Shown piece after piece: positions 20,062 to 41,605 of a stretch of DNA of 64,000 nt. Each line of letters starts with the position of its first letter. Position 1 is the first letter of the stretch. The stretch is from an uncultured Glaciecola sp. Lineage in GTDB: Bacteria; Pseudomonadota; Gammaproteobacteria; Enterobacterales; Alteromonadaceae. The position numbers and the translations under genes are program-made. The notes under the pieces were generated by a model that made no database searches, was not told where the DNA came from, and saw only the letters and a list, made by a program, of their open reading frames with translations. Location: positions 62,001 through 126,000 of the forward strand of contig CANMCE010000002.1 of the NCBI GenBank assembly GCA_947496235.1. Direction: 5' to 3'.

Positions 20062-20631
20062 ATGCTTGACTCTGTACTCATGTTCGTTATGAACGAACTT
20101 AACGGCTATCTAAAATCTAAGTCAGCGCTCACTGATGATGTTGTGAAGCTTGGACCTATTGTGGATGACAGCGGTAAATACGCCCTTGATAAAAACAGTA
20201 TTTCCCTATCATTAATCAATGTTGAACAAGAAGCTATAACTAAACAGCAACTCCCTAAAACTACCTACTCCCAGGGCAAAATGTTAACTTTTGCACCTGA
20301 GCTTCGTGTTAATCTTTATGTCATTTTTGCGGCTCGTTTTGATATTTATGATCAGGCATTAAAGTACATGTCGCACATAATGAACTTTTTTCAAACTCGC
20401 CCCTTGTTTACCCCAGATACTTATCCGGAGCTTGATACTACTTTATCGAGAATATCTCTGGATTTGCAGTCGCCCAATTATGACCAGCTAAATCAGATTT
20501 GGGCATTTATCGGCGGTAAACAATTACCTTCTGTTTATTACAAAATACGCGTGGTTAGTTTGCGTGATCAAGAATCGCCTAATATTGGCCCGCCAATATT
20601 GACCGTGAATAACGAGATTCATTCAAAATAA
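20062..20631 (+). CDS. eCIS tube/sheath cap protein, DUF4255 (Afp16-like)
   Basis: A 189-aa protein of the DUF4255 family, the Afp16/Pvc16 cap that terminates the tube in extracellular contractile injection systems. Features are LDSVLMFVMNELNGYLKSK at the start, ISLSLINVEQEA, a short basic region, the central LNLYVIFAA-like pattern (RVNLYVIFAARFDIYDQALKYMSHIMNFFQTRPLFTP) and SPNYDQLNQIWAFIGGKQLPSVYYKIRVV. These residues are strongly conserved in DUF4255. It opens the 15-gene cluster and is followed 30 bases later by an unknown gene. Confidence 0.9.
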   Translation: MLDSVLMFVMNELNGYLKSKSALTDDVVKLGPIVDDSGKYALDKNSISLSLINVEQEAITKQQLPKTTYSQGKMLTFAPELRVNLYVIFAARFDIYDQALKYMSHIMNFFQTRPLFTPDTYPELDTTLSRISLDLQSPNYDQLNQIWAFIGGKQLPSVYYKIRVVSLRDQESPNIGPPILTVNNEIHSK

Positions 20632-20661
20632 ACTAACCGGCAATAGAAAGGAAAGGCTGAG

Positions 20662-21660
20662 ATGGAGTTTAGTAAGTTAATGGACGTCAGCATTACCCAT
20701 GACTTTTACGATGGGCTATGCGGGGACTTGATTTTGAAGCCGGTTGTTAACACCGGCAAACTTATGCACGTGGGGAAAATGCGTAGCGTAAATCAAAACG
20801 GCCAAACGTCTCTTTTTTATCAGCAAAACCCTCTAGCAGAACCAATGCAAAATATGTCAGGTGCGCATTTACTATTTGCATTAGTACCTACATCAACAAC
20901 CTTTAGTGTGATTACTCAATTGGGCAATAAAACCAATCAATTAACTATCTATCGTAATGATGCTGATCCTAATAGCTTATCCGCACAGAGCTTTACCAAA
21001 GCAGGTGAAAGATTTACCTATGAGATTGTGCTTGAACAAAGACCATTAACCTTAACTTTATTGAACAGTGCTGGTGACACCGTTGAAAGTTATGAGATTA
21101 CGGCGGCGCAAAATATTCAATCTTTTACCTTTGAACTTGCACTTTATGAAAACGGCTTGTATCGCATAACGGAACAAACTGACAGTGATAATGCTGAGAC
21201 CAACATTGCGTTTTTCCCAGAGCTGCCTAGCCAGTGTCAGGGATTACTTATTCTCACGGTGGATAGTTCCCACTATAGCTCACCTGTTGACTTCACCATT
21301 AATTTTAATGCGCGCGAAGACAGGCTGAACTACTACATAGTGGCGACAAAATATGCCGAGGCAGATTTGACTGGGCTGTCAGTCACAGATGCAGGTTATG
21401 AAGAACAAAACCGAACCGAAATTACCTTCAATAAATTACAAGTAGCAGATTTCACTGATCAAGAAATTGACAGTAGCTTGCTCACACAAAATGGCAATAA
21501 CGTCATTTTATTCCAATCTCAATCAGCGGTCAGTCGACGTTTAGTTGGTCCTAAGCACATACAGTTGACGCTGAATGATGAAGTTCTCTTTTCGAGTTTG
21601 CCAATACCGGGTAGTAACAGAGTCACGGCGGACTTTTTTATTCATGTTGCTAAGCCCTAG
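20662..21660 (+). CDS. eCIS-associated protein of unknown function (332 aa)
   Basis: I recognise no domain. The protein starts MEFSKLMDVSITHDFYDGLCGDLILKPV and is rich in short beta-strand-like segments (FSVITQLGNKTNQLTIY, FTYEIVLEQRPLTLTLLNSAG). It has no signal peptide or membrane segment. Its place between the cap and sheath genes, with short spacing on both sides (30 and 11 bases), makes it part of the particle operon. It could be a structural accessory or a surface/receptor-binding protein; there is no direct evidence for either. Confidence 0.75.
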   Translation: MEFSKLMDVSITHDFYDGLCGDLILKPVVNTGKLMHVGKMRSVNQNGQTSLFYQQNPLAEPMQNMSGAHLLFALVPTSTTFSVITQLGNKTNQLTIYRNDADPNSLSAQSFTKAGERFTYEIVLEQRPLTLTLLNSAGDTVESYEITAAQNIQSFTFELALYENGLYRITEQTDSDNAETNIAFFPELPSQCQGLLILTVDSSHYSSPVDFTINFNAREDRLNYYIVATKYAEADLTGLSVTDAGYEEQNRTEITFNKLQVADFTDQEIDSSLLTQNGNNVILFQSQSAVSRRLVGPKHIQLTLNDEVLFSSLPIPGSNRVTADFFIHVAKP

Positions 21661-21671
21661 GAGCGTCATCT

Positions 21672-23084
21672 ATGCCAGCATACAAAACGCCAGATGTTTA
21701 TATAGAAGAAATACCGGTTTTTCCTCCCTCTGTAGCTGAGGTGGAAACGGCAATTCCCGCTTTTGTAGGTTACACCGAAAAAGCCACCAAAAGTACGGAC
21801 AATGATTTAATTTTAAAACCGACCCAAATTACCTCAATGAAGGAGTTTGAACAGCTATTTGGTGACTGCTATTACGATACAATTGCCATTAGTATCGAAG
21901 CAAGCGGAGATACCTTTACTTCCTCTTCATTTACGCCACCCACTGCTGAATATTTGCTTTGGTATGCAATGAAAATGTTCTTCGATAATGGCGGCGGGAA
22001 ATGTTACGTGGTTTCCGTCGGACTTTATCAAAGTTCACCCAATATCAGCAATGAAGGTGAAGCAGATTCAGCAGATATTGATGTCAGATACGGCTTATTA
22101 GATGGCATAAAAGCGGTTCAGGATGAAGACGAACCCACATTGTTAGTGGTACCTGAATCGGTGAATTTGGGATCGACCGAATATCAAGCCTTGGTACAAG
22201 CCATGTTATTGCAATGTGCGACGCTACAAGACAGGTTCTCTATTTTTGATATTTTTGACGGGGATACCAAATTAGATAGCAGTCAGCTTGACACAAATCG
22301 GTCTTACTTCGGCAATAATCACCTAAAATACGGGGCTGCATATTATCCGTTTTTAAAAACCGGCATGGTGTATAAGGTAAAAGCGGATAAGTCCAACGTT
22401 AATGTCACTGTTGGGTCGGATGCAGCTGCGCAACTTGGCACTATAGAAACATCCCAAACTGCAGCCTACAACTTTGTCATGAACAAAATCAAAGAAGCCT
22501 ACGTGACTCTGCCGCCATCCGCTGCCGTTGCCGGCATTTATGCGATGACAGATGCCAATCGAGGCGTTTGGAAAGCACCCGCGAATGTCAGCATTAACAA
22601 TGTTATTTCCCCTGTAATTAAAACCGACACTCTATATCAGGATTCTCTTAATGTAGATGCCGCTACCGGGAAATCTATCAATGCTATTCGCAGCTTTATG
22701 GGCAAAGGTACATTAGTGTGGGGCGCTCGCACTCTCGCCGGAAATGACAATGAATGGCGATATGTTTCAGTGAGACGTTTCTTTAATACGGTAGAAGAGT
22801 CAGTGAAGAAATCTACCTATTGGGCAGTATTTGAGCCGAATGATGCCAACACTTGGGTAAAAGTGCGCGGCATGATCGAGGCTTATCTGAATCAAAAATG
22901 GCGCGAAGGCGCTTTGGTTGGCGCAAAGCCCGATGACGCTTTCTTCGTACGTTGTGCTTTGGGTGTCACCATGAATGCTCAAGATATATTGGAAGGTCGC
23001 ATGAACGTTGAAATAGGCATGGCAGTTGTTCGTCCTGCTGAATTTATTGTGTTGAAGTTTTCTCACAAACTTCAAACGTCTTAA
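21672..23084 (+). CDS. eCIS contractile sheath protein
   Basis: The sheath that contracts to drive the inner tube, 470 aa, family phage tail sheath/Afp2-4. The N-terminus YKTPDVYIEEIPVFPPSVAEVETAIPAFVGYTEKA, NGGGKCYVVSVG, PSAAVAGIYAMTDANRGVWKAPANV, GKGTLVWGARTLAGNDNEWRYVSVRRFFNTVEESVKKSTYWAVFEPND and the C-terminal strand AEFIVLKFSHKL are classic. SD TAGGAGCG lies before the ATG. There is only one sheath gene, whereas Afp and PVC clusters carry three; single-sheath eCISs are known. Confidence 0.96.
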   Translation: MPAYKTPDVYIEEIPVFPPSVAEVETAIPAFVGYTEKATKSTDNDLILKPTQITSMKEFEQLFGDCYYDTIAISIEASGDTFTSSSFTPPTAEYLLWYAMKMFFDNGGGKCYVVSVGLYQSSPNISNEGEADSADIDVRYGLLDGIKAVQDEDEPTLLVVPESVNLGSTEYQALVQAMLLQCATLQDRFSIFDIFDGDTKLDSSQLDTNRSYFGNNHLKYGAAYYPFLKTGMVYKVKADKSNVNVTVGSDAAAQLGTIETSQTAAYNFVMNKIKEAYVTLPPSAAVAGIYAMTDANRGVWKAPANVSINNVISPVIKTDTLYQDSLNVDAATGKSINAIRSFMGKGTLVWGARTLAGNDNEWRYVSVRRFFNTVEESVKKSTYWAVFEPNDANTWVKVRGMIEAYLNQKWREGALVGAKPDDAFFVRCALGVTMNAQDILEGRMNVEIGMAVVRPAEFIVLKFSHKLQTS

Positions 23085-23113
23085 TCCATTGAACCAAGAA
23101 CGGAGCTAATAAA

Positions 23114-23548
23114 ATGTCAGAATTATATCCATTGCCAGTGTTTCATTTCGCGGTTCAGTGGGGCGGAACCCGCATCGGCTTTTCCGAAGTGTCAGGCCTG
23201 ACGCAAGAAGTTCAACCCATAGAGTACAGAGACGGCACATTTTTAGAATTTTCCGCGATTAAAATGCCTGGACTGAAAAAGTACAGCAACATCACCCTAA
23301 AACGAGGCGTTACCAAAGGTGATAACGATTTTTTCAATTGGCTGAATACGGTCAGTCTAAACAAAGTAGAACGTCGCGATATCGTAGTATCACTGCTAAA
23401 TGAAGAGCATGAGCCCGTCATGTCGTGGAAGGTGCATAATGCTTTTCCAGTGAAAGTCGAAGGGCCTGGACTCAAAGCTACCGGTAACGAAGTCGCCATT
23501 GAGTCTATTGAATTAGCTCATGAAGGCTTGAGAGTGCAAAACGAATGA
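23114..23548 (+). CDS. eCIS inner tube protein 1 (gp19-like)
   Basis: A 144-aa Hcp/gp19-fold tube subunit. PLPVFHFAVQWGGTRIGFSEVSGL, YRDGTFLEFSAIKMPGLKKYSNITLKRGV and WKVHNAFPVKVEGPGLKATGNEVAIESIELAHEGL are the recurrent tube motifs. Preceded by an ACGGAGC ribosome-binding site. Its stop overlaps the next tube gene by four bases, so the two tube proteins are translationally coupled. This is probably the main tube (Afp1-like). Confidence 0.95.
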   Translation: MSELYPLPVFHFAVQWGGTRIGFSEVSGLTQEVQPIEYRDGTFLEFSAIKMPGLKKYSNITLKRGVTKGDNDFFNWLNTVSLNKVERRDIVVSLLNEEHEPVMSWKVHNAFPVKVEGPGLKATGNEVAIESIELAHEGLRVQNE

Positions 23549-23988
23549 CCGCCTATCATCCACCAGTAGGTTTCCATTTTTCGGTTGAAGTGATGGGATT
23601 CGACAATAGTTCAGATTCAAGGTTTACCGATGTTTCTGGGCTGAATGTTGAGATGGCGACGGAAGAAATTGCTGAAGGCGGTCAAAACCGCTTTACGCAA
23701 AAGTATCCAGTGCGAACCAAGTATCCCGAACTCACCCTTAAGCGAGGTTTACTCAAACAATCGCAAATGATTGATTGGATAGCGCAATGCATAGAAGACT
23801 TCGATATTGAGCCAAGAAATATCAGTCTTAAGTTATTGAACGAAGAGCATGAGCCTTTGATGCATTGGTACCTTGTAGGTGCTTATCCAGTGAAATGGTC
23901 AATCAGTGATTTCTCCGCCACCAGTAATACCTATGTGGTGGAATCGCTGCAGTTCTACTACAAGTTTTTTAGCATTAAGCAGGATTAG
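23545..23988 (+). CDS. eCIS inner tube protein 2 (Afp5-like)
   Basis: A second tube-fold protein, 147 aa: PVGFHFSVEVMGFDN, RFTDVSGLNVEM, YPELTLKRGLLKQSQMIDWI, LKLLNEEHEPLMHWYLVGAYPVKWSISDFSATSNTYVVESLQFYYKFF. It diverges from tube 1 and matches the Afp5/Pvc5 type, which forms the tube layer that joins the spike. It overlaps tube 1 by four bases and is separated by one base from the DUF5908 gene. Confidence 0.93.
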   Translation: MTAYHPPVGFHFSVEVMGFDNSSDSRFTDVSGLNVEMATEEIAEGGQNRFTQKYPVRTKYPELTLKRGLLKQSQMIDWIAQCIEDFDIEPRNISLKLLNEEHEPLMHWYLVGAYPVKWSISDFSATSNTYVVESLQFYYKFFSIKQD

Positions 23989-23989
23989 T

Positions 23990-24154
23990 ATGCCCCTTAT
24001 CATCGACGAAGTTGTTATTTCCATCAATGTAGACAACCGAGGGTCGCCAAGATCAACCGCAAGGTCAGGGCAAAATCCTCAAGCAAAAAAAGAAATAGTT
24101 GAAGAGTGTGTCGAACAGGTGATGGAGATTCTCCGCCAGCAGCAAGAACCCTAA
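23990..24154 (+). CDS. DUF5908 small eCIS protein (Afp6-like)
   Basis: A 54-aa protein starting at ATG 23990, one base after the tube 2 stop. It begins MPLIIDEVVISINVDN and ends in a charged helix (EIVEECVEQVMEILRQ). This small beta-strand-plus-helix pattern is that of DUF5908, the Afp6/Pvc6 family found between the tube and LysM genes. Longer readings of this frame start inside tube 2 and are not credible. The function in the particle is not established. Confidence 0.85.
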   Translation: MPLIIDEVVISINVDNRGSPRSTARSGQNPQAKKEIVEECVEQVMEILRQQQEP

Positions 24155-24169
24155 CACTAGGTAATTTTA

Positions 24170-24832
24170 ATGAAAGGCGAACTAGAAAAACTAAAAATTC
24201 AGGCATTTGCAGAAGCCGATTATTCAGGAGACAAACTCTCTGAGTTCAGTGCTTTTGTAAACCCAAATGAACTGACGTTGGCGTATGAAATGGAATACGA
24301 CAGTGCTCAGGGCAGCGGTACAACCAATAGCCGCATGGATTTTAAGCAAATCAAACCTGGTGATCTTAATGTCACACTTTTCCTTGATGGAACCGGCGCT
24401 AGCGGAGAGAAAATTGACGTTCAAACGCAAATAGAAGCCTTCCAATCTACCACAGGGTACAACGGAGATATTCATCGACCTAATTATCTTATTGTCGCTT
24501 GGGGCAGTTTAACGGTAAGGCGTTGCATCTTAAAATCGGCTTCTATTGCATACAAGCTTTTCAAGCGCAGTGGTGAACCTCTTCGCGCTGTTATAAGTGC
24601 AACCTTTACTGACAATTCTGACGATCAAACCAGAGTTGCTTTGGCGCAAGATCAATCACCAGATTTGACCCATAGCAGGGTATTTAAAGCCGGGGATTCG
24701 TTACCTAACTTATGTCATGAGATCTATGGGAATGCGGCTCTTTATACCCAGGTCGCGAAGCTTAACGCCTTGCATCAATTTCGCAATATTAGTCCGGGAA
24801 CACGTTTGTTATTCCCTCCTTTGGAGAAATAG
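24170..24832 (+). CDS. eCIS LysM-containing baseplate hub protein (Afp7-like)
   Basis: A 220-aa protein matching Afp7/Pvc7. The N-terminal domain (about 1-150) is the gp53/LysM-associated fold (FVNPNELTLAYEMEYDSAQGSGTTNSRMDFKQIKPGDLNVTLFLDGTG). A C-terminal LysM-like domain (about 165-218) has VFKAGDSLPNLCHEIYGNAALYTQVAKLN and ISPGTRLLFPP. In eCIS this protein links tube, spike and baseplate; its LysM serves assembly rather than cell-wall lysis. Its end contains the GGAG that serves as ribosome-binding site for the next gene. Confidence 0.92.
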   Translation: MKGELEKLKIQAFAEADYSGDKLSEFSAFVNPNELTLAYEMEYDSAQGSGTTNSRMDFKQIKPGDLNVTLFLDGTGASGEKIDVQTQIEAFQSTTGYNGDIHRPNYLIVAWGSLTVRRCILKSASIAYKLFKRSGEPLRAVISATFTDNSDDQTRVALAQDQSPDLTHSRVFKAGDSLPNLCHEIYGNAALYTQVAKLNALHQFRNISPGTRLLFPPLEK

Positions 24833-24834
24833 CT

Positions 24835-26544
24835 ATTAGTACTCAACGTCGTTTACCCATCAGTATCAATCACCGTGAGTTTACCATCAGCGTAGAGGGA
24901 AATTTGGTGCCTCGCAGTTACAACTTATTGGCTGTTTCGGTGGTCGCTCAAGCTAATAAAATCGCCCACGCTAAAATCGTGTTTCAAGATGGTGAGGCGT
25001 CTACAGGTTCTTTTCCTATTATCTCAGAAGGTCTGTTTGAATTCGGTCGCCAATTAGAAATAAAAGCAGGGGATTCAGAACAAAACACGACCTTATTTTC
25101 AGGTGTGATTGTTGGACAGCAAGTCAAAGTAAATGAGCGTAAATCCCCTCAACTAGTGATCACGTGCAAACACCAAGCGGTTAAGATGACCTTGCACAAA
25201 CAGGGGCGTTATTTTGAGTCTTTGTCTGACAAAGATGTAATAGAGGAAGTATTTTCACAGCACGGCATTCAAACCGAAATCGATATATTAGAAGAATTCT
25301 ATCATGAGCAGCTAATACAATATGATGAAACCGACTGGGATTATTGTCTTTCTCGGTTAACTGCATCAGGTTTAGTGCTCTTTACCCAAGGTGATAAGCT
25401 TGTCATTAAACCGCCAGCAGTTAACGACCAGCCTAAGCTAACTTTAGAATATGGTGCCACTCTATTAAGTGCGGATCTTAGCACGGATGCCCGCAGCCAA
25501 AAATCTCCCATAGAAGCGATGAAATGGGAAAGCGAAAATCAAGCCATCGCCTTTCGAACAGGTCGCAATGAGTTTGGGGAACAGCCGGGCAATTACAGCA
25601 CAAGTACACTTGCTGACTCCCTCGGTGGAGATATGTCATACATTCGAAAACCTGCCACTTCAGATTCAGAGTTACAGCAACTGGCAAGCGCCCATACCAC
25701 TTACAATGCGGTCAATCGAGTCTCGGGTACATTAAAAACCATAGGCGTGAGCGATGTTATGCCCGGTGACATTGTGAATCTGATGGGTTTGAGTCAGGCA
25801 TTCAATGGGCATTCTTTGGTCACAGGTATTCGCCACGAATTAGATACGGTCAGCGGCTGGCGCACATATTTTCAAGTTGGCGGAATAGAGTTACCAGAAG
25901 ATACTTCAAACCAAATCAGTTCAGGCTTACAGATAGGCAAGGTAGTCGACATTGAAGATCCGGAAAATGAATACAGGGTCAAAGTAAAACTCCCTATGTT
26001 AGATGAGACTACGGATGGCATTTGGGTACGAATAGCGAGCTTAGATGCTGGACCTGACAGAGGATTTTTTGTGCGCCCAGAAATTGATGACGAAGTGGTG
26101 CTTAGCTTCTTACAAAATGATAGCCGACAAGGCGTGATTTTGGGCATGTTGCATAGTAGTGCACATCCCGCTACTGAATCTCCTCAGCCAGAAAACAATA
26201 TTAAAACATGGGTGACGAGAAGCGGGCAGTCCATCACCTTTGATGAAGAAAAAGTCGCAATAAGTTTAGCAACGCCAAATGGAAACAAGCTTGATATCAG
26301 CGAGGATGAAAGTGGCATTTTGCTAACTGATGAAAATGGTAACTCTTACGGTATGACCCCAAGTGGCATAGAAATTAATAGCGCCTCAGATTTATCTATC
26401 AATGCGGATGGAAATGTAATGATTAAGGCTGGCATTAATTTGACCATGGAAAGTGCTTCGAACTTGCAAGTTAAAGGCGCAATGACAACTGTAGAAAGTG
26501 GTGCAGTAACTACAATTAAAGGCTCATTAGTAAAAATAAATTAG
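24835..26544 (+). CDS. eCIS VgrG-like central spike protein (Afp8-like)
   Basis: The central spike that carries the tip. The conserved N-terminal strand (ISINHREFTISVEGNLVPRSYNLLAVSVV) begins before any ATG, GTG or TTG: the first standard codon is TTG 24904, inside that strand. Upstream, the frame is open only to a TAG at 24790-24792, and an ATT at 24835 sits eight bases after GGAG (24823-24826). I therefore propose an ATT start (569 aa). Domains follow: gp27-like (about 10-350), OB-fold (VVDIEDPENEYRVKVKLPMLDE, about 365-440) and a repetitive beta-helix tip (SASDLSINADGNVMIKAG). If ATT is wrong, TTG 24904 gives 546 aa. Confidence 0.85.
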   Translation: MSTQRRLPISINHREFTISVEGNLVPRSYNLLAVSVVAQANKIAHAKIVFQDGEASTGSFPIISEGLFEFGRQLEIKAGDSEQNTTLFSGVIVGQQVKVNERKSPQLVITCKHQAVKMTLHKQGRYFESLSDKDVIEEVFSQHGIQTEIDILEEFYHEQLIQYDETDWDYCLSRLTASGLVLFTQGDKLVIKPPAVNDQPKLTLEYGATLLSADLSTDARSQKSPIEAMKWESENQAIAFRTGRNEFGEQPGNYSTSTLADSLGGDMSYIRKPATSDSELQQLASAHTTYNAVNRVSGTLKTIGVSDVMPGDIVNLMGLSQAFNGHSLVTGIRHELDTVSGWRTYFQVGGIELPEDTSNQISSGLQIGKVVDIEDPENEYRVKVKLPMLDETTDGIWVRIASLDAGPDRGFFVRPEIDDEVVLSFLQNDSRQGVILGMLHSSAHPATESPQPENNIKTWVTRSGQSITFDEEKVAISLATPNGNKLDISEDESGILLTDENGNSYGMTPSGIEINSASDLSINADGNVMIKAGINLTMESASNLQVKGAMTTVESGAVTTIKGSLVKIN

Positions 26545-26555
26545 GACTTCAGGGT

Positions 26556-26975
26556 ATGAATGGACAAGGTTTTCTAGGTAGAGGTTGGCAATTCCCTCCT
26601 GCTTTTTCAGCGACGAGCGGAGAAGTCTTAATGTCTGAGGATGAGCAAGATATTCAAGATAGTCTTAAAATTTTATTGGGCACAACCCAAGGAGAAAGAT
26701 TTTTAGTACCCAAATACGGTATGAACCTGCAACATTTACTATTCGATAATCTCAATACAACCGCTCGTACGTTATTGCGCGACAAAATCAAACGCACCTT
26801 ATTAGTCTACGAATCCAGAATAAATGTCATCGACGTTTTTCTAGATGATAGCATGCTGCAAGAGGGAAAATTGGTTATCCAAATAGATTATGTTGTACGT
26901 GCCAACAACTCCCGATTTAACTTAGTGTACCCATATTATTTGCATGACGGTACCGAAGTTTCGCCAGCGCTTTGA
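26556..26975 (+). CDS. eCIS baseplate gp25-like protein (Afp9-like)
   Basis: A 139-aa T4 gp25/IraD-fold protein that initiates sheath assembly at the baseplate. GFLGRGWQFPPAFSATSGEVLMSEDEQDIQDSLKILLGTTQGERFLVPKYGMNLQHLLFDNL shows the family motif including the ER of the EPR-like core (GERFLVPKYG). It lies 11 bases after the spike gene. No PAAR gene follows, where Afp10 would be expected. Confidence 0.94.
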   Translation: MNGQGFLGRGWQFPPAFSATSGEVLMSEDEQDIQDSLKILLGTTQGERFLVPKYGMNLQHLLFDNLNTTARTLLRDKIKRTLLVYESRINVIDVFLDDSMLQEGKLVIQIDYVVRANNSRFNLVYPYYLHDGTEVSPAL

Positions 26976-26990
26976 TAGGGACCTTGTCAT

Positions 26991-29900: not shown

Positions 29901-30095
29901 AGGGTATTTAAGTCAGTGGTAATGGATTTTATCGAAGAGTTGCCATATGTTGACTTTATTACCCAAGTGGTTATGCAAGCGTCTGAAGACGGTTCGGCAT
30001 TTTATGAAGATACTAATAGCTTGAAGGCAATGTCGCCGGATCAGATTTTAACTTCGGCATCTGAGCATCTTATTACGGAGGTGACAGATGACTGA
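26991..30095 (+). CDS. eCIS baseplate J-like protein (Afp11-like)
   Basis: A large baseplate wedge protein, 1034 aa, related to phage gpJ/T4 gp6. Its N-terminus has the FDFIKELSAKIKFYS and LLKVFVEKLIEGPIQQQNTFLNSYVNYYYQDVLRF pattern of the family. The C-terminal third carries the diagnostic FGGQSVESDDDFAARVSARLRHKDRAITLWDYESMILANFPQIHRVKALPH segment followed by LLVVPYV. The ATG at 26991 is 15 bases after gp25, and the stop overlaps the next gene by eight bases. It is expected to form the heterodimeric wedge with the next protein. Confidence 0.93.
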   Translation: MSQNFQTPDIVQLLLPEQGRSRPQRLPQGLASDYVKIDERQEAEYFDFIKELSAKIKFYSNDPEITDNNWGNFFDFAQGQSESWFEQHDGQISPHLSLLKVFVEKLIEGPIQQQNTFLNSYVNYYYQDVLRFSKNKASPDHAHVIISLKNASQPVLISTEQAFLAGKDEFNNPILANPTMDTVINLGQIAEKRTIYVDDLDKPGIKIAPIADSFDGLGEDFPEDKKVWSGFGHQDLTACEIGFALSSSLLNLAEGEREISIELTLASTLSKNETNFDSVFKVYLSSEEGWTQGVFASAVAKGNLLTLTVRLDVEAPAIVNYSQDLHGFSLDANAPVVQVTIDSESTHPLLSKIYKAHIDEVKLRVDVTGVTNIQAKSDAGLVSTNSAFFPFGTNPKAGSEFSITSDEIFSKRLAEVKVNIEWKKAPRYLSSIYTAYHEYETHVPELLSNEYFTADASVVDGNNRNLSQRNVSLFSTSDARAQQQITVSENPPIGPKILNFLDYTSVLGSYQSLWAQKRYGQISLISPMFSAVNTSKTKKKYNRRLSFVLDKSFFHEEYRKAYVKSVMAAKDVDSSIVSEPYTPEIGAISVDYQAYTQSVKIAGSKSADFANDAIRFYHLDCFGQRREHSYQRSQMPFAVDPRVSLFPYKTEKGSLLLGLENLQPGDSCQLLFKVVEGSANPSLVPADITWSVLCDNYFKPLDEKSLIFDHTQGLQTTGIVRVIFPKEATTEHSLMPSGYLWIKLAITGSAASVCQLEDIFANAIEVVAVQDEAQMNATKIASGAISKLQKTVSAIKKIEQPFAGFGGQSVESDDDFAARVSARLRHKDRAITLWDYESMILANFPQIHRVKALPHARPGHWQAPQHITLLVVPYVEMESSSEPLTPKVSTHTLESIKDLLLQKSAMQAQLHVVNPSYVYVRMQFQVRFMPGIDFNFYQQELNDALVSLFAPWTNDSANAEDTLSSPKFGGRVFKSVVMDFIEELPYVDFITQVVMQASEDGSAFYEDTNSLKAMSPDQILTSASEHLITEVTDD

Positions 30096-32649: not shown

Positions 32650-35309
32650 GTAGCGTCATAACAAGTCTCAAAGAAATATCGCAGCAGTACACGGTATTCT
32701 CCAAAGATCAGGTGTTAACTGATTCTCAGTTAAATAGCATTACGGACTATTTAGATGATCAAACTAGGCTAACCCGCACCGCATTAAGTGGTGTCGGCAT
32801 AATTGAGGGGTTAGTGGTAAGCGCCACTAATACTCAATGCTCTCTAAGTAAAGGCGTTGGTATCACCCGTGATGGTGACTTGTTCGCAAATTACGCTCCG
32901 ATCAGATTTGATCGTGCAAAGGAATTTCCTGATGACGGACCCGAGTATCCGCCTTTTATGAACGCTGAAAAGCGACTCCCCTTGTATCAGTTAGTCGAAG
33001 TCGGTGCTGATGATCCAAAAGCAGCCCCTATTTCACAACTCGATATAGCAATTCAAAACTGCTTGTTTATTTTGTTTGCTGAAAGCGTTATTGAAGATAC
33101 CGATATATGTACTGGCACAAATTGCGACAACGGTAGTCGCACCTATCATACGCGTATGCGAGTACTTGCTATCGATTTAAACTACGCAGAACTATTACGC
33201 TCGCCGAATTTAATTGCCTACCCTTCGGAACAAGAAGTAGCGCGCTTATATCCGCCTAGCATAACCTTTAATGCCTCAATTGATACGCAAACAGAATGGT
33301 TTAGCCGAGTACGTCAGCAGTGTGCCAATATTGGCAAACAATTAAATGCAGCTTTTTCATCATTCTGGCCGAACTACAAAGATTATTTATACCCTTACTT
33401 TGATGGCAACCCCAGTGAAACTTGGGCCGGCCGGCTTCAGGCCGCATTAGCGAAATCGAAAACAGAAAATGCTAGAAATCAATATTTGTACGAGTTTTTA
33501 AGTGACCTCTGTGACACATACAATGCATTAATAGATGCATTAGAAGAAGTGCGACCGGGACTTTTGGTTGGCGCAGATTCCGGAAGTAAGCATCTTCTGT
33601 TGGGAACTATTGGTGGCCAAGGATTGCGCTCTGAATTTATCGCGGCGCCTATTCATGCAAGACAAGCCATGCAACCTGTGCATTTTTATGTAAATAAACT
33701 GACAGAGCTTCTCGCCAGTTTTGGTTGGACCCGCATCAGTGCACTTAAAATTACTCCTTCAAGTCACGTAGAGCCTAGCTTGCCCGGCTATTACGGAGAA
33801 AATACCTTTAACCTTTGGGATTACGCAGCAACACAAAGCAATAAAACTCGCTATTTGTTAGGATACAATGCAGATAAAAATAACCCCAGAGGTGGTGCTC
33901 AAGCTCCCCTTGAACGACGCCAATCTGGGTTTGATTTCTATCGAATTGAGGGGGTTTTAGGCAAGACATTTTCAGCTACACAAAGTCAGTTGAAGCAGTT
34001 AATAAAACAATATCACCTGCCTATTTCAGTTACTGGCGTACTCATTGAAGGCAGTTTCAATGATGTCATTATTCCTATTCGACCTTTCACCAATAATTTC
34101 GGCCATCTGAAGCACATGTTCAAAAAGGATCTCAGTTATCAGTTACAAGATGTGACGAATTTCAGCACCAAATTTAAAAATGAAGTGGTGGAAAAATCCC
34201 AGCAACAACCCTTGGTAGACGGGGAAGATATAGATCTCAGCGACAAAGTACAAACCCGAGATAACGAAATAAGAAGCAAAGCGACTAGCGCTATGTCATT
34301 GCTTAAAAAAGATAAATTGAACACTGAAGAAAAGACAATGTTCAAAGCCGATCTTACTGCGGTGGTAAAGAGCGCAGGTATGTTCAAGTCCGATGTAGCC
34401 AGTGTTTCTACCACCCACTTTCCTACTATGTTTGATCAAATCATTACCAGTCCAACCATCCGCTGGATCGATTGGTTAGATATTTTGGCGGATGATGACG
34501 AAAAAACAGAAAAAGAAAAATCTCAATTACCCTCATTTTTAAGTGAGTTTCCCGGGTTTGAGGTCAGCAATGGGGTAGTGCGCGGAGGAACTTTCGTGTT
34601 GGTCTATAACTCAAGTGGCACTATTGTTGGTACTGGCATGTTATCTCACTATATTCCTATGCCCGTGGAGCGAGTGCCTTTATTGCCCAGTTTACCTAAA
34701 TTTGAGTTTCCATTGGATCAGTTGCGGGTGCCAGGCATTCAAGTAGCGCCATCCTTGGGCAAACGTTTCCTTGATTTTGGTTCTTCTGTTACTCAGCAAG
34801 TCGACGAGCGCTTTTCCAGTAATACTAATTACCTTGATGTGTTTAGAGATTCTATAGGCATAGTGCGCGATATTTATATGCCAGAGACATCTGTAATCAC
34901 GCCTCAGATTCCCGGTGACTACATTCCCATAGAAGATATTTTGGTTGATGGTGCCATGTCCAGCATGGCAGCCGCTGAAAAAGAGATACAATTTTTAGAT
35001 GACAGGATCGCAAGAGCGTCTTCGGCAAACGAAAAACAAGCTCTTGAGTCAAGAAAGCAACAAAAACAACAACAAATGGCTGAAGACATGGTGTTTGTAG
35101 CTAAGTATGTAGAGACCAATACCAGCATTTCCGCTGACAAAGGCAATCAAGTAATTGCAAATTTAGGCAAAACGGGTAAGTCCCTTTCAGGTAATGATCA
35201 AGCCATCGACATGGTAAAAGCTGAAGTCGAAAATGTGGCGAATGACAGTCAAAATGCGACCTTTAAAATGAACTTAAAAAATGTACTAGGTGCGAATTTT
35301 GGATTCTAA
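32646..35309 (+). CDS. eCIS-associated 887-aa protein, unknown (baseplate or fibre candidate)
   Basis: No named domain recognised. The N-terminus ITSLKEISQQYTVFSKDQVLTDSQLNSITDYLDDQTRLTRTALSGVGIIEGLVVS looks like a conserved module that recurs in eCIS loci of other marine bacteria. A four-Cys cluster sits near residue 155 (TDICTGTNCDNG). The C-terminal part (about 760-860) is coiled-coil-like and Gln/Lys/Glu-rich (EIQFLDDRIARA, ESRKQQKQQQMAEDM). No signal or membrane segment. It occupies the slot of Afp13 (fibre) between the wedge and tape-measure genes but lacks visible fibre repeats. Its ATG overlaps the previous stop by four bases. Confidence 0.75.
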   Translation: MSSVITSLKEISQQYTVFSKDQVLTDSQLNSITDYLDDQTRLTRTALSGVGIIEGLVVSATNTQCSLSKGVGITRDGDLFANYAPIRFDRAKEFPDDGPEYPPFMNAEKRLPLYQLVEVGADDPKAAPISQLDIAIQNCLFILFAESVIEDTDICTGTNCDNGSRTYHTRMRVLAIDLNYAELLRSPNLIAYPSEQEVARLYPPSITFNASIDTQTEWFSRVRQQCANIGKQLNAAFSSFWPNYKDYLYPYFDGNPSETWAGRLQAALAKSKTENARNQYLYEFLSDLCDTYNALIDALEEVRPGLLVGADSGSKHLLLGTIGGQGLRSEFIAAPIHARQAMQPVHFYVNKLTELLASFGWTRISALKITPSSHVEPSLPGYYGENTFNLWDYAATQSNKTRYLLGYNADKNNPRGGAQAPLERRQSGFDFYRIEGVLGKTFSATQSQLKQLIKQYHLPISVTGVLIEGSFNDVIIPIRPFTNNFGHLKHMFKKDLSYQLQDVTNFSTKFKNEVVEKSQQQPLVDGEDIDLSDKVQTRDNEIRSKATSAMSLLKKDKLNTEEKTMFKADLTAVVKSAGMFKSDVASVSTTHFPTMFDQIITSPTIRWIDWLDILADDDEKTEKEKSQLPSFLSEFPGFEVSNGVVRGGTFVLVYNSSGTIVGTGMLSHYIPMPVERVPLLPSLPKFEFPLDQLRVPGIQVAPSLGKRFLDFGSSVTQQVDERFSSNTNYLDVFRDSIGIVRDIYMPETSVITPQIPGDYIPIEDILVDGAMSSMAAAEKEIQFLDDRIARASSANEKQALESRKQQKQQQMAEDMVFVAKYVETNTSISADKGNQVIANLGKTGKSLSGNDQAIDMVKAEVENVANDSQNATFKMNLKNVLGANFGF

Positions 35310-36786
35310 TTTGCACCGCGTTAAACGTTTGCGATTTAACGCTTCTGTTAATTCTACAAACAATGGTTTTGCATTGCGCCAACTCTTGCAGTCCAGCGTG
35401 CCTGAGCTCGAGAGCGTTTTGAGTCATACGCTGGATCAAGAAATGCCGGTACAGGATTGGTTGTTCATTCCGAGTTTACATCTAGATATTGATCTGGCTG
35501 ATACACAAATGCAAGATCGTGAAGCCATACTAGATGCCATTCAAAAAGCACTGTTAAGCCAAATCGAAGGCGTAAAAAATGCCGTTAGGAGCACTAGCAA
35601 TCTAGCTTCTGGTGAATTTAGTGAAATTTTGACCAACCAAAATGGCAAAGCTGATAGAAATGCTAGTACCAAAAAACCAAAGGCTTTTAGTAATCAAGAC
35701 AATCTAATTGATGTGTTGTTTTACTACTTATCTGAGGGGATTTTGCCATGGTATCGCCAAACCGATAATGATATTGAACGCCAATGGAAAGGACTATTTA
35801 AAAATCAGCAAACGGTCAAAAACTGCAACCAGAAAATTCATTTGCAAAGCATGCGGGAGCGCTGGATACACCTGCTTATAACCCATACTGAAGACTTTGA
35901 ATTGTTAACTGTTATCTTAAATTCGGAGTTGATAAATCAAGAAACGGCTAAGTTATTGATTCGATTTTTCGAACAGCATACTCAATCAACAACGCACTCC
36001 GACATTATTAGTTTGCTTTTAGTGTTTACTGCGCCCAAATTAACTACTTTGGATAAGCGCTCCCTCGATCAAGCTGAACGAGCTATTTCAGTTCTATTCA
36101 AAAATGTTCAAGGCGTTAGCGCAAAATCTGAACTACAGCAAATTCAAAAAAGGCTTCTTAATGCAATTAGCAGCCTTGATGCCAACTCGCTGCCTGATTC
36201 TATCGCGCGGTCTCAAATCTTGGATACTCCACAAGTATCAGTTGAAACTAATCAGCCAAGATCACATGAAGAACAAGCAGGTGCTGAGATTATTTCGATA
36301 CCTTTTGCTGGGCTGATCTTACTGCACCCTTATATGTCTCGATTATTTAGCGGACAGGGATGGCTTGATGATCAAAAACAATTAAAAGCATCGGCAATAA
36401 ACACAGCAGCAAAAGCACTTTGTTATTTGAGCACTGGCAATGCAAGCCTACCTGATTACCAATCAGGCACCATAAAGCTATTGTTGGGATTACCGCTGGC
36501 CACATTTTTACCTTTAAATGAAGAACCATTAGAACAGAAAGTCATTCATGACTTAGATAACCTGTTGAGCAGTTTTATTACCCATTGGGGAAAAATTGGC
36601 AATATCTCTCATCAAGGGTTACGCGCCGGTTTTATGCATCGACAGGGGCTATTGCAACACACAGAAGAATACTGGCAATTGAGCATAGACAGAAAAGCCC
36701 ATGACGTATTACTGGATTTTCTTCCTTTTAGCATTTCAACAGTGAAACTCCCATGGATGCCACTACCAATTCACCTAACCTGGTAA
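35290..36786 (+). CDS. eCIS tape-measure/length-control protein (CIS_TMP, Afp14-like)
   Basis: A 498-aa protein with the two marks of the contractile injection system tape-measure family. The N-terminal segment is HRVKRLRFNASVNSTNNGFALRQLLQSSVPELESVLSHTLDQ, then WLFIPSLHLDIDL. The C-terminal segment is AGLILLHPYMSRLFSGQGWLDDQKQLKASAINTAAKALCYLSTGN. It is expected to set tube length. Start GTG 35290 overlaps the preceding gene by 20 bases. Compared with Afp14 it is short, which fits a shorter particle, but length rules are only partly known. Confidence 0.92.
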   Translation: MRILDSNLHRVKRLRFNASVNSTNNGFALRQLLQSSVPELESVLSHTLDQEMPVQDWLFIPSLHLDIDLADTQMQDREAILDAIQKALLSQIEGVKNAVRSTSNLASGEFSEILTNQNGKADRNASTKKPKAFSNQDNLIDVLFYYLSEGILPWYRQTDNDIERQWKGLFKNQQTVKNCNQKIHLQSMRERWIHLLITHTEDFELLTVILNSELINQETAKLLIRFFEQHTQSTTHSDIISLLLVFTAPKLTTLDKRSLDQAERAISVLFKNVQGVSAKSELQQIQKRLLNAISSLDANSLPDSIARSQILDTPQVSVETNQPRSHEEQAGAEIISIPFAGLILLHPYMSRLFSGQGWLDDQKQLKASAINTAAKALCYLSTGNASLPDYQSGTIKLLLGLPLATFLPLNEEPLEQKVIHDLDNLLSSFITHWGKIGNISHQGLRAGFMHRQGLLQHTEEYWQLSIDRKAHDVLLDFLPFSISTVKLPWMPLPIHLTW

Positions 36787-38132
36787 AACAGGCTAACACT
36801 AACGCTAACGCCCTAGAACTTGAGCTTCTGTGGTTGGCTGAGGTTTTGGATGCGCGGATTCAAGCCTATTTCTACGACCAGGGCGGCCCCTTACATTTTC
36901 AATTCGAAAAAGCTCAGCCACCTGATCTAGATCCTAGCTCTAATTTAGCCCGCCTGATTACTAAGTATTCACTAACGGCTGCGCAAAGGCTGGTTATTGC
37001 GTTAGTTATTGCGCCCTACATTCGACCGCAGTTGTTAGATGTGTTTTTTGTGCCTAACAAGTATATCCAACGAGGGCACACCGAATTTGGCGGCTTACAA
37101 GCGCAGGGGCACAGTGGCTTTATTCCGACCATAGAAACCGCGTTATTCGTACTTTGTGGCGATTGTCTTAACGAGAGATTCAATCTAACCCAAGAGTTCA
37201 CTCTATCCAGCGTACTGTTTACCCAAGGGATTATTGAACATGAGTCGCTAGGGCCTTTAGAACCTTGGACCAGTAGTGTTCTTACCATGCCTAAATCTAT
37301 GCTTGATCACCTCACCACTGGCGGGCCTTACGAACCTGCTTATGGAAAAGACTTTCCAGCCAAAAAAATTACGACCTCTCGCAAATGGGAAGAATTGGTA
37401 TTACCAGAAAGTTTACTCAGTCAATTAAGAGAAATTGCAGATTGGGTCACATATAGCCCTGTGTTAATGCAAGACTGGGGGATGGACAATAAGCTTTCAC
37501 CAGGTTACACGGCGTTGTTTTATGGGCCGCCGGGGACAGGAAAAACGTTTTCTGCGAGTTTACTAGGGTATTTGACCAACCGAGATGTGTACAAAATTGA
37601 CCTGAGTTTGTTGGTGTCGAAATATATTGGTGAAACCGAAAAGAATTTAGCCAAAGTATTTGATGCTGCCGAGCATAAAGGCTGGATTTTATTCTTTGAC
37701 GAAGCGGATGCCATTTTTGGTAAACGCACGCAAGTGGATGATGCAAAAGATAGATACGCGAACCAAGAAGTAAGCTATCTGTTGCAACGTATAGAGTCAT
37801 TTGATGGCATTGTCATATTGGCATCCAATTTAAAAGCCAACATAGATGATGCCTTTATCCGACGTTTCCAAAGCATTGTGGCTTTTCCTATGCCAAGTGC
37901 AGCTGAACGTTTAGCCATTTGGCAAGGGGCGTTTTCAGAAAAATCCAGACTGGATGATGATGTAGATTTAAGGCAGTTAGCCAAAAAATACGAAATAGCC
38001 GGTGGCACCATCATGAACATTGTTCGCTTTAGTAGCCTGAAGACCCTAAGCGAAGGCTCGAAAGTTATTAGGTTAGCCTCTATAGAGCAGGGGCTAAGGC
38101 GAGAGTTTGCCAAAGAAGGTAGACGCATATGA
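36753..38132 (+). CDS. eCIS AAA+ ATPase (Afp15-like)
   Basis: A 459-aa ATPase found in nearly all eCIS clusters. The N-terminal 200 residues are family-specific. The AAA core has Walker A GPPGTGKT (258-265), Walker B WILFFDEADAIFGKR (FFDEAD 314-319), sensor-1 IVILASNLKANID and the arginine-finger region DAFIRRFQSIVAFPMP. Afp15 is required for assembly and/or cargo loading of the particle. The ATG overlaps the tape-measure gene by 34 bases, and the stop overlaps the toxin gene by four bases. Confidence 0.93.
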   Translation: MDATTNSPNLVKQANTNANALELELLWLAEVLDARIQAYFYDQGGPLHFQFEKAQPPDLDPSSNLARLITKYSLTAAQRLVIALVIAPYIRPQLLDVFFVPNKYIQRGHTEFGGLQAQGHSGFIPTIETALFVLCGDCLNERFNLTQEFTLSSVLFTQGIIEHESLGPLEPWTSSVLTMPKSMLDHLTTGGPYEPAYGKDFPAKKITTSRKWEELVLPESLLSQLREIADWVTYSPVLMQDWGMDNKLSPGYTALFYGPPGTGKTFSASLLGYLTNRDVYKIDLSLLVSKYIGETEKNLAKVFDAAEHKGWILFFDEADAIFGKRTQVDDAKDRYANQEVSYLLQRIESFDGIVILASNLKANIDDAFIRRFQSIVAFPMPSAAERLAIWQGAFSEKSRLDDDVDLRQLAKKYEIAGGTIMNIVRFSSLKTLSEGSKVIRLASIEQGLRREFAKEGRRI

Positions 38133-41100
38133 TGCAGACGGCGAGTAAAACGAAAACTACCACAAAACGTGCTGACACTAGCGCGTCTGTGGTGTTTCGC
38201 TCCGCTGCCAACAAAGACAAAGAAAAAGATCCAGTTCAAGGCAAATTCTTCAAAGCTGCATTAAAACCAATGCGAGTTTCATCTCCTGATGATCCTGAAG
38301 AAAAGGAAGCCGACGCCACCGCAGATAAAGTCATGCGAATGGCCGAAAAAGAAGAAACACCAGTAAGTTCTTCTCAGCCAGCAATCTCGACCAAGAAGCA
38401 AGAGGAAGAAGATACCAGTATAAAACGTCAAACAATGCCTGAATTAGCGCGTAAAGCCCAAGGCAGCGTGAATATGAAAGCCAATGTGCAAGCGGACATA
38501 AATCGCGCAATGTCAGATGGAAGCCCTCTACCGTTGTCGGTTCGCAAATTTATGGAGCCCAGATTTAAAGCAGATTTTAGTAAGATAAAAATCCATACGG
38601 ATACAACCGCGGCTAAACTAAATCGCCGTTTGAGTGCAAAAGCATTTGCTTATAAAGAGCATGTATTTTTTGCTGAAAATCAGTTTAAACCTGACAGTAA
38701 AGATGGCAAACAGCTGATAGCACACGAACTCACTCACAGCATTCAGCAAGGTGCCGCGCCTCAACAGCAGCAATCTACCACCAAGCAAACAGAATCTACA
38801 GCAAAAACTACTAATAAGTCTTCCGCAACCACTAATTCTCCAGCATTATCACGGAAAGCAGAGGTTACTCACAGAACGCAACCTAGTATTCAACGTTTAG
38901 GTGTTCAAGACGCCTTGGACTTTTTTGCAGATGCTGCTTATCTCATTCCTGGTTTTCGCATGCTATGTATATTGCTGGGCAGAAATCCTATTAGTGGCAG
39001 CAGAGTTGAAAGAAGCGCAGCCAATATTTTAAGGGCCGTGGTCGAGTTTTTACCCGGCGGTATTATCATTACCACGGTGCTGGACCGCTATGGCCTTTTC
39101 GAACGAGCCGGTAATTGGATTAACGAACAACTAGACAGTTTAAATCTCACCTATGACAGCTTGTCTCGCTCTTTATCACGTTTTTTAGACAGTTTAAGTT
39201 GGAGCGATATTTTCGATTTGGATGGGGTTTGGCAAAGGGCTAAACGCATATTTACTGAACCTATAGATCGAATCGTCAGGTTTGCTCGGAACCTGTTCAA
39301 CACTATTAAACAGATGATAAAAGACGCGGTTTTGATCCCACTCGCACAATGGGCATCCCAAACCCGAGGTTGGGATTTATTATGCGCGGTGCTAGGACGA
39401 AACCCTATTACTGATGAAGTTGTTGAGCGCTCACCTGAAAATCTTATCGGTGGCTTCATGAAGTTTATTGGGCAAGAAGAAGTGTGGGAAAATATAAAGC
39501 GCGCAAATGCTATTCCTAGAGCTTGGGTCTGGTTTCAAACTGCTTTGGCCGGAATAAGTCGTTTGGTAAGGGGTATTCCACTCACCCTAATGCGAATATT
39601 CGAGGCACTACGCGTTGCAGATTTACTTAACATTCCCGAGGTTTTTGCTCGGATTTTGGGCACCTTTGCAAACTTTGCTATTAATTTTATTCGCTGGGCT
39701 GGTGGTACAGTAGCAGATTTACTCAAAATCATTTTTGAAGTCCTAGCGCCAGGGATGATGCCCTATCTTCGCAGAGCTAGAGGGTCGCTAATGTCTATTA
39801 TTAGAAACCCGATTGACTTTGTGAAAAACCTTATTCGAGCCGGCGTTTTAGGCTTTAGACAATTTGCCCAACGATTTTTACGCCATTTGCGAACAGGGTT
39901 TATCAATTGGTTGACAGGTTCTCTTGCAGGTACCGGCGTGCATATTCCGACCTCATTTTCATTGACCGAAATAATCAAATTTGTGCTTAGTGTGTTAGGT
40001 GTTACTTGGCAAAGAATTCGCCAGAAACTGGTGACGAAAGTGGGCGAGCCCGCAGTGACTGCTATGGAGCGAGGATTCGATATTGTAAGAAAGCTGGTAA
40101 CAGAAGGTCCTATGGCATTATGGGAGCAATTAAAAGAGACTCTGGCTAACTTACGAGATACTGCCATTGAACGTATTATGAATTTTGTGTTGGAACGAGT
40201 GGTTCAATCTGCTGTTACCCGCATCATATCTATGTTGAATCCAGCTGGTGCATTTATTCAAGCCATCATGGCCATTTACAACACCATCATGTTTTTTGTT
40301 GAGCGCATGAGAACCATAATCCAAGTTGCGCAATCTTTTCTTAATTCCATTATGGATATTGCAGCAGGTAGATTAGCCCCAGCAGCTGCTAGAGTTGAAC
40401 AAACATTGGCAGGCATGTTGAGCCTTGCGATTAGCTTTCTTGCACGTTTTATTGGGTTAGGCGGAATTTCTGGTCATATTAGTAGAATTCTAACGCGTAT
40501 TCGTGCACCAATAGATCGTGCATTGAATAGCGCTATTGATTGGGTGGTACGGCAAGCCAGAAGAATTGGTGGCTTTATAATGCAAGCCGGTGTGCCCAGA
40601 GATCCTCGCATTCGTTTACGACGAGGTTTAGATGCGGCTAAAGCCATTGTGCGAAGATTACCAACCAACGGGTTGGGGGAAGCTGTTATTGTTCGAGCAT
40701 TGAGGGTAATTAAAGAGCGCTATGGATTTCAGCAATTAATCCCCAGAATAAAAAATGGAAGTTGGTGGATATTTGCCAAAATTAATCCTGAACTAGATGA
40801 AAATTCAGGCAAGGCTGCAAACGGCGCTACAGAGCAGCAAGTGGCAGGAAATATGCCTGACATCGTAGATGTTTTAGATCCCAGTGACACATTGCTCATC
40901 AGGCAATATTCCAGAGAGCGACGCTCAGGGGAGTTTACCAATGCGATACACAACGGAAATCAAGTTACTCTGAGTAAAGTTGGATTTCAGCGAGATAACG
41001 AGTATGTGAAACAAGCTGTTGGTAGCCAACAAAGTGTCAAATACACAATTTCTGAAGCTAGCGATAAATACCCAACGCCGCCGCGAATAGTCGGCATAGT

Positions 41101-41605
41101 AGATAGCGGCAACCCAGAAGAAGCCACTACCTATGATCAGCATCGCCGCGCGTTTGGTACTACGAAAAGGCGTTGGTGGCGAGGTGATGAACCTACAAGC
41201 CCAAATGTTGCTTGGTTAATTGAAAAAGGTTGGTTATTGCCAGGTGACAAAAAAGGATTACAGTCGGGCACTCGCAAATGGCGTTTTATTCGCAATTTGT
41301 TCAATGCAGAAGAAGCAAAATTTTATGGTAACAAGTCGGCCAGTAAAGCCAATATGCTGGCTGCCTTTGATCAACATCCGAATAAATTTAGAGTTGAAAC
41401 CTTTTATCAAGCATGGGATCGCCGCATCGCAGAACAAACCGAAATTCATCATCTTCTTCCTCTAGATTTTGGCGGAACGAACAATCAAACCTTTATTCCA
41501 CTGTCCCGTGACATGCATACCAAAGACGGCAGTAAAAGTATTCATTTAGCTTTTTGGAATCCAATGAAACGCTGGTTATTAGGCTTACGTGGCGCGCAGG
41601 CCTAA
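38129..41605 (+). CDS. eCIS cargo candidate: DUF4157 protein with C-terminal HNH nuclease motif
   Basis: A 1158-aa modular protein. An N-terminal charged linker leads to a DUF4157 domain (about 120-207) with the zinc-protease-like motif HELTH (199-203). DUF4157 is a known marker of eCIS-associated effectors. The long middle contains two copies of a module (about 277-310 and 417-450) with LGRNPI and VER motifs, plus many amphipathic and hydrophobic helices (VLSVLGVTWQ, MLSLAISFLARFIGLGG). The C-terminal 54 residues read EIHHLLPLDFGGTNNQTFIPL with His-1107/1108, Asn-1118/1119 and His-1130, an HNH/ββα-metal nuclease-like motif. No immunity gene follows. Delivery of a DNase is inferred; activity is not shown. 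Confidence 0.88.
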   Translation: MMQTASKTKTTTKRADTSASVVFRSAANKDKEKDPVQGKFFKAALKPMRVSSPDDPEEKEADATADKVMRMAEKEETPVSSSQPAISTKKQEEEDTSIKRQTMPELARKAQGSVNMKANVQADINRAMSDGSPLPLSVRKFMEPRFKADFSKIKIHTDTTAAKLNRRLSAKAFAYKEHVFFAENQFKPDSKDGKQLIAHELTHSIQQGAAPQQQQSTTKQTESTAKTTNKSSATTNSPALSRKAEVTHRTQPSIQRLGVQDALDFFADAAYLIPGFRMLCILLGRNPISGSRVERSAANILRAVVEFLPGGIIITTVLDRYGLFERAGNWINEQLDSLNLTYDSLSRSLSRFLDSLSWSDIFDLDGVWQRAKRIFTEPIDRIVRFARNLFNTIKQMIKDAVLIPLAQWASQTRGWDLLCAVLGRNPITDEVVERSPENLIGGFMKFIGQEEVWENIKRANAIPRAWVWFQTALAGISRLVRGIPLTLMRIFEALRVADLLNIPEVFARILGTFANFAINFIRWAGGTVADLLKIIFEVLAPGMMPYLRRARGSLMSIIRNPIDFVKNLIRAGVLGFRQFAQRFLRHLRTGFINWLTGSLAGTGVHIPTSFSLTEIIKFVLSVLGVTWQRIRQKLVTKVGEPAVTAMERGFDIVRKLVTEGPMALWEQLKETLANLRDTAIERIMNFVLERVVQSAVTRIISMLNPAGAFIQAIMAIYNTIMFFVERMRTIIQVAQSFLNSIMDIAAGRLAPAAARVEQTLAGMLSLAISFLARFIGLGGISGHISRILTRIRAPIDRALNSAIDWVVRQARRIGGFIMQAGVPRDPRIRLRRGLDAAKAIVRRLPTNGLGEAVIVRALRVIKERYGFQQLIPRIKNGSWWIFAKINPELDENSGKAANGATEQQVAGNMPDIVDVLDPSDTLLIRQYSRERRSGEFTNAIHNGNQVTLSKVGFQRDNEYVKQAVGSQQSVKYTISEASDKYPTPPRIVGIVDSGNPEEATTYDQHRRAFGTTKRRWWRGDEPTSPNVAWLIEKGWLLPGDKKGLQSGTRKWRFIRNLFNAEEAKFYGNKSASKANMLAAFDQHPNKFRVETFYQAWDRRIAEQTEIHHLLPLDFGGTNNQTFIPLSRDMHTKDGSKSIHLAFWNPMKRWLLGLRGAQA

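Follow-up and report, generated by a model that had tools for sequence, protein, structure and literature searches.

A 64,000-nucleotide stretch of DNA from an uncultured Glaciecola sp. (GenBank assembly GCA_947496235.1, contig CANMCE010000002.1, positions 62,001 to 126,000 of the forward strand; hereafter the window) was analyzed for a cluster of genes at positions 20062–41605 encoding an extracellular contractile injection system (eCIS). A preliminary description of the window had proposed a 15-gene co-directional run with overlaps of 4–34 bases and gaps under 31 bases. This layout was confirmed: all 15 genes are present on the plus strand and closely packed, with neighbours separated by 1–30 bases or overlapping by 4–34 bases. 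Profile searches were run with all 15 proteins, as that description had suggested, and 11 of them gave Pfam matches below 1e-14; one protein remained under the Pfam cut-off (Baseplate_J, 6.4e-4) and three had no useful Pfam match. Searches against solved structures identified the Baseplate_J protein (Alg11) and two of the three Pfam-less proteins (Alg12 and the tail fibre). The features are as follows.

20062..20631 (+): cap (Alg16A/Pvc16_N, DUF4255); Pfam Pvc16_N 4.6e-32, solved AlgoCIS cap 7adz_0A 1.7e-20
20662..21660 (+): cap adaptor (Alg16B type), 332 residues; fold match
21672..23084 (+): single contractile sheath; Phage_sheath_1C 5.8e-15, AlgoCIS sheath 5.2e-136, All3325 1.5e-130
23114..23548 (+): inner tube A (gp19); Phage_T4_gp19 7.9e-49
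23545..23988 (+): inner tube B (gp19), probably the tube initiator; Phage_T4_gp19 1.8e-41
23990..24154 (+): small DUF5908 protein, probable plug (Alg6/Afp6); DUF5908 1.5e-16
24170..24832 (+): CIS tube / LysM spike-hub protein (Alg7); CIS_tube 8.3e-47, LysM weak, 0.023
24835..26544 (+): VgrG-like spike (Alg8), probable ATT start; Phage_base_V 1.5e-22, All3320 7.8e-105, AlgoCIS 6.8e-104
26556..26975 (+): gp25 sheath initiator (Alg9); GPW_gp25 2.7e-21
26991..30095 (+): baseplate J protein with spike-cage region (Alg11); 7aeb_G 1.6e-114
30088..32649 (+): baseplate wedge (Alg12); 7aeb_A 4.5e-111 over residues 15–849
32646..35309 (+): tail fibre / crown (Alg19/Cis19), 887 residues; 9wt0_a 1.1e-41, All3314 3.8e-16
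35290..36786 (+): tape measure; CIS_TMP 3.8e-68
36753..38132 (+): AAA+ ATPase (Pvc15 type); AAA 2e-26
38129..41605 (+): cargo with eCIS_core/DUF4157 at residues 133–209; eCIS_core 2.3e-27
3086..3376 (-): solitary PAAR protein, probably the spike tip of the particle; PAAR_motif 7.6e-27

The eCIS core set, comprising sheath, tube, spike, gp25, baseplate J, DUF4255 cap, AAA ATPase and DUF4157 protein, is found complete in this one locus. The initial identification of an eCIS with a DUF4157 cargo was therefore correct, the eCIS_core match lying in the last gene, and so was that of a single sheath, since 21672..23084 gives the only PF04984 match in the genome. For the protein at 24170–24832, named earlier as a LysM protein, the CIS_tube part is well supported and the LysM part only weakly. 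The probable role of the DUF5908 protein as a plug is deduced from its position and size (PMC8894135), and that of the second tube protein as initiator from its position. The cluster had been likened in content and order to Afp and PVC particles; it belongs instead to the AlgoCIS/tCIS type, and encodes a headless contractile phage-tail-like particle that is a well-preserved new member of an already known family. AlgoCIS of Algoriphagus machipongonensis (a clade Ib eCIS; PMC8894135, PMC13314943) likewise has a single sheath, a cap and cap adaptor, a plug, an Alg11/Alg12 baseplate with cage and an Alg19 fibre. By contrast, AlgoCIS has a PAAR protein, Alg10, whereas the window operon has none, and its fibre is 1443 residues long. 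With every structural part assigned, the window provides an AlgoCIS-type particle from a marine gammaproteobacterium.

To place the sheath, one genome per species was scanned and the best 80 of 541 matches were considered. Among these, the nearest sheaths were those of Neiella marina (75% identity), a gammaproteobacterial metagenome-assembled genome (MAG; 70%), a Geobacteraceae MAG (69%), a Verrucomicrobia MAG (68%), Bacteroidetes MAGs (66–67%), Gallionella (64%) and Variovorax (62–63%). In a tree of 88 sheaths, which included Algoriphagus and Nostoc rows, did not place MAC, subtype-iv type VI secretion system (T6SS), Afp or PVC rows, and omitted relative G024, whose sheath matched in two pieces, the window sheath formed one clade of 16 rows (support 100/100) with these near sheaths, those of relatives G101 and G144, and two long-branched MAG rows. 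Its sister was the sheath of Neiella (100/96). The claim of a distinct lineage thus holds on the sheath tree. The reasons originally offered for it fail, because the cluster does have a fibre and a cap adaptor, the genome holds a PAAR gene at another site, and AlgoCIS and tCIS likewise possess only one sheath: the supposed lack of a canonical fibre is contradicted by the match of 32646–35309 to the AlgoCIS tail fibre, and the protein at 20662–21660, previously left without identity, has the cap-adaptor fold.

The Neiella marina J221 cluster (L058, L157) shows the same order of the genes seen and a near-full-length cargo match including the tip; it differs from that of the window in having its own PAAR between spike and gp25. 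A contractile injection system in Neiella was not found in a literature search. Within the genus of the window, CIS_TMP was present in 2 of 13 genomes searched, and the other positive genome (G002) has a different sheath lineage and no detectable cap adaptor of the window kind. Horizontal spread is the simplest reading of the distribution of the cluster, to which MAG binning errors could add noise. Two Alteromonadaceae MAG contigs (L090 and L100, at about 10001–11360) carry a sheath-like gene that falls within the clade on a branch of length 1.3; as no other gene of the operon was detected beside it, they were not counted as members.

The cap-adaptor fold of the 332-residue protein (20662–21660) was recognized by structure comparison, its kinship with the AlgoCIS counterpart not being recognizable by sequence. 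Fold matches ranked below two cap adaptors cover mostly its immunoglobulin-like part, at about residues 112–189. Cap adaptors of this kind were detected in 11 loci among the best 80 of 541 sheath loci, some of which do not reach far enough ahead of the sheath for one to be seen, and all 11 lie inside the clade of the window. The protein was also present in G101 and G144, out of eight relatives' clusters examined. In a literature search, the term cap adaptor was tied to contractile injection systems only in the AlgoCIS work.

The start of the spike gene had been placed at TTG 24904. Homology, however, extends to about 24835, and the frame offers no ATG, GTG or TTG from the preceding stop codon down to 24904, leaving ATT 24835 and ATA 24829 as sole candidates; ATT 24835, preceded by GGAG, is the likely start. 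The spike homologues of Neiella and G101 start with ATG. Alignment of the baseplate J protein to 7aeb_G spans residues 90–507 and 545–1035 of Alg11, that is, most of the cage domain (278–643). The fibre, with 887 residues versus 1443 and 1476 in solved relatives (the AlgoCIS tail fibre 9WT0, PMC13314943, and Anabaena All3314, called Cis19, PMC8894136), is kept in nine aligned relatives at 897–1000 residues. Its first 50 residues are 52–64% identical in these nine, and conservation is lowest over its last 137 residues, at 0–29% identity outside Neiella. Such a variable end could reflect target-specific receptor binding, or weak constraint.

A PAAR protein had been reported as missing, which stands for the operon, where no open reading frame (ORF) for one lies between spike and gp25 and there is no room for it, but not for the genome. 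A single match to PAAR_motif (PF05488) was found in the genome, inside the window at 3086–3376 (-). This gene lies some 17 kb away from the operon, and its neighbours, judged by their translations, are TonB-receptor-like on one side and molybdate-transport-like on the other. A PAAR encoded within the cluster is a frequent, though not invariable, feature of eCIS. Of 17 CIS_TMP genomes among 147 searched, 12 have a PAAR gene within 15 kb of CIS_TMP, and the window genome is one of the five without. The stretch behind the spike is covered in 12 cap-adaptor clusters, nine with a PAAR there and three, from Variovorax, without, like the window. The solitary PAAR is closest to PAARs of eCIS operons (75.8% to the best-scoring one). 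In a tree of 62 rows and 96 columns, built from PAARs whose match spanned at least 86 residues (those of G101, G144, L067 and L078, among others, were thereby left out), it falls outside a group of five PAARs from non-eCIS loci (support of 98 in the Shimodaira–Hasegawa-like approximate likelihood ratio test), labelled as such by us from their distance to eCIS clusters. These comparisons suggest that the solitary PAAR probably tips the eCIS spike. Service as the tip of the T6SS encoded on contig 19 of the same genome was considered and rejected, as that system has its own DUF4280 protein, which we take to be PAAR-like, and the window PAAR lies outside the five-PAAR group; both points lend support and are not proof. 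The displaced gene offers a clean way to test if an eCIS depends on PAAR, and if the protein may come from an unlinked gene. Separately, in a same-genus genome without CIS_TMP (L040, 1471–3206, minus strand), a VgrG-like spike gene is followed by a PAAR that is nearest to eCIS PAARs in the tree, and this pair possibly belongs to another contractile system.

The cargo, of 1158 residues, contains eCIS_core at 133–209, with HELTH at 199, a hydrophobic, arginine-rich middle part that we call the carrier (about 260–890) and a variable tip (about 890–1158). When cargos were sought in 13 cap-adaptor clusters, ten gave clear carrier matches, one a weak match (the Verrucomicrobia MAG, 5e-6) and two none (the Geobacteraceae MAG and one Bacteroidetes MAG). 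Measured per 50-residue block, eight non-Bacteroidetes cargos showed 22–80% identity to the window over residues 51–800, and two Bacteroidetes cargos showed 30–48% only at about 550–800, with 4–22% before. Past residue 900, identity across the ten aligned cargos dropped to 0–22%, except for Neiella (44–80%). Likewise, at a threshold of 1e-3 the tips of the window and Neiella matched with 59% identity over 253 residues and those of two Bacteroidetes with 34% over 113, other tip matches being few, short and near the tip beginnings; among the ten clear carrier relatives, only Neiella has the tip in common with the window. eCIS_core was matched in five of seven relatives' cargos scanned (G101, G144 and G155 lay outside the scan).

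Pfam families were matched above cut-off in the tips of three of the ten relatives (Endonuclea_NS_2 twice, Ntox15 once) and below cut-off in two (GH-E, SsdA_C), with no match in the other five. The window tip ends in a EIHHLLPLDFGG-N-H-H pattern, presumably an HNH-like motif, whose H, H, N, H and H are identical in Neiella. The tip is accordingly predicted to be, probably, an HNH-like nuclease. No relatives of it were confirmed in viral contigs (112 pattern matches, none related), phages or plasmids. A tape-measure ancestry of the carrier was also considered. The carrier matched tape-measure PHROGs at 7.9e-9 and 1.4e-7, but the reversed carrier, used as a control, matched three tape-measure PHROGs as well, with a best value of 4.7e-7, so that the similarity is not distinguishable from composition and homology is not claimed; three of four relatives' cargos scanned matched such PHROGs, that of Neiella not. 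DUF4157 proteins that carry a toxin at the C-terminus behind a long linker have been described (PMC8213781), as has a nuclease-tipped DUF4157 effector (PMC11126660). Clusters with related carriers and different tips offer a natural series for testing the function of DUF4157 carriers.

Taken with what is described for AlgoCIS and the Streptomyces effector Tme (PMC8894135, PMC13314943, PMC11126660), the locus is best read, with a probability of roughly 0.7, as encoding a released AlgoCIS/tCIS-type headless particle that injects a nuclease-type toxin. Sequence and fold comparisons account for a cap with adaptor, a sheath over gp19 tubes, a plug, hub, spike, gp25, a caged baseplate, fibre, tape measure and ATPase. 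By analogy, the PAAR from the distant gene (3086–3376) would sharpen the spike, and the ATPase together with the DUF4157 domain would bring the cargo of 1158 residues into the tube. After leaving the cell by lysis, the particle would attach to a target cell through the fibre's variable C-terminal region, after which the cage would open and contraction would push tube and cargo into the target; in AlgoCIS, Alg19 fibres bind bacterial cells and the cage opens before contraction (PMC13314943). The hydrophobic carrier may then lodge in or cross a membrane and present the C-terminal tip, a probable HNH-like nuclease that varies from one relative to another, as tips of polymorphic toxins do.

Several observations weigh against this proposal. 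eCIS_core was not matched in two Bacteroidetes cargos of the clade. The window tip had no match in Pfam, NCBIfam, PHROG or PADLOC, and its single-sequence AlphaFold model reached a predicted local distance difference test (pLDDT) score of only 34.7, so that the term nuclease rests on the motif and on the relatives' different tips. The cysteine pair C268–C1000 of Alg11, critical for AlgoCIS firing (PMC13314943), is not kept: no cysteine of the window protein aligns with either, and its last 280 residues contain none. Finally, no same-strand ORF of at least 90 residues lies between the cargo gene and the convergent gene that follows after 202 bases; the Neiella cargo is likewise followed by a convergent long frame, 99 bases away. 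No adjacent immunity gene was thus seen, which is unusual for an antibacterial toxin, although most eCIS toxins are reported without one in PMC8213781.

The main rival to a released injector is self-directed use, the particle staying in the producer cytoplasm and firing on the cell's own membrane to cause cell death or DNA release, as reported for Streptomyces systems and the Tme effector. The lack of an adjacent immunity gene and the short fibre would fit, and the cargo resembles Tme of Streptomyces davawensis (PMC11126660) in its DUF4157 domain in the N-terminal region, hydrophobic middle and C-terminal nuclease-like domain; it differs from Tme in that its tip matches no EndA-type family and in that the tape-measure similarity of its carrier cannot be told from composition. 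However, the intracellular Streptomyces systems are assumed in PMC12923769 to be fibre-less, whereas here a fibre is kept in nine relatives and is least conserved at the end where receptor binding would be expected, even if weak constraint could have the same effect. We regard this alternative as unlikely, though worth keeping in mind. Considerably less probable is a membrane-anchored system of the kind seen in Anabaena tCIS or subtype-iv T6SS, both of them close relatives with a spike cage, and the former also having Cis19 and the cap complex in common with the window. Anabaena tCIS (all3313–all3327; PMC8894136) has the thylakoid anchor Cis13, encoded between its Alg11 and Alg12 homologues, whereas the Alg11 and Alg12 genes of the window overlap with no gene between them. 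In addition, the Alg12 homologue of Anabaena has 1335 residues versus 853 in the window. No 19-residue hydropathy window above 1.6 was found in the fibre, which has no strongly hydrophobic segment, or in Alg11; Alg12 has one such window and the ATPase has three, all of them borderline. A defective prophage tail or tailocin is highly improbable despite folds of sheath, tube and baseplate that are common to phage tails and matches of the sheath to viral profiles (phrog_17610, 3.2e-51, and another, 3.9e-41), given the presence of the DUF4255 cap, CIS_TMP, DUF5908, AAA ATPase and DUF4157 cargo, the absence of any head- or tail-labelled PHROG among ten flanking proteins, where phage structural genes had been named as a possible refutation, and the scores of the sheath against solved structures.

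On this last point, where grouping of the sheath with prophage tails had been named as a further refutation, the sheath matched AlgoCIS and Anabaena sheaths best and the other named eCIS sheaths down to Afp4 (7.5e-41), at least 30 orders of magnitude above pyocin (9.7e-9) and T4 gp18 (3.2e-8). As the sheath tree was built without phage rows, the comparison with phages rests on these scores and on gene content.

A more far-reaching reading, which we consider less likely than not, combines a particle whose PAAR tip comes in trans from a gene unlinked to the operon, a lineage (largely of Pseudomonadota, some partial relatives belonging to Bacteroidota) that shares its carrier and swaps tips, and a window tip belonging to a nuclease family outside current libraries.

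The absence of the T6SS membrane complex TssJLM, stated earlier, applies within the locus, none being found among the 15 operon genes; the genome nonetheless holds the separate T6SS on contig 19, with VipB, VgrG and the DUF4280 protein. Scans at both ends of the operon found no promoter. The downstream signal peptidase and the TonB receptor adjoining the PAAR gene were matched in all 12 same-genus genomes compared.

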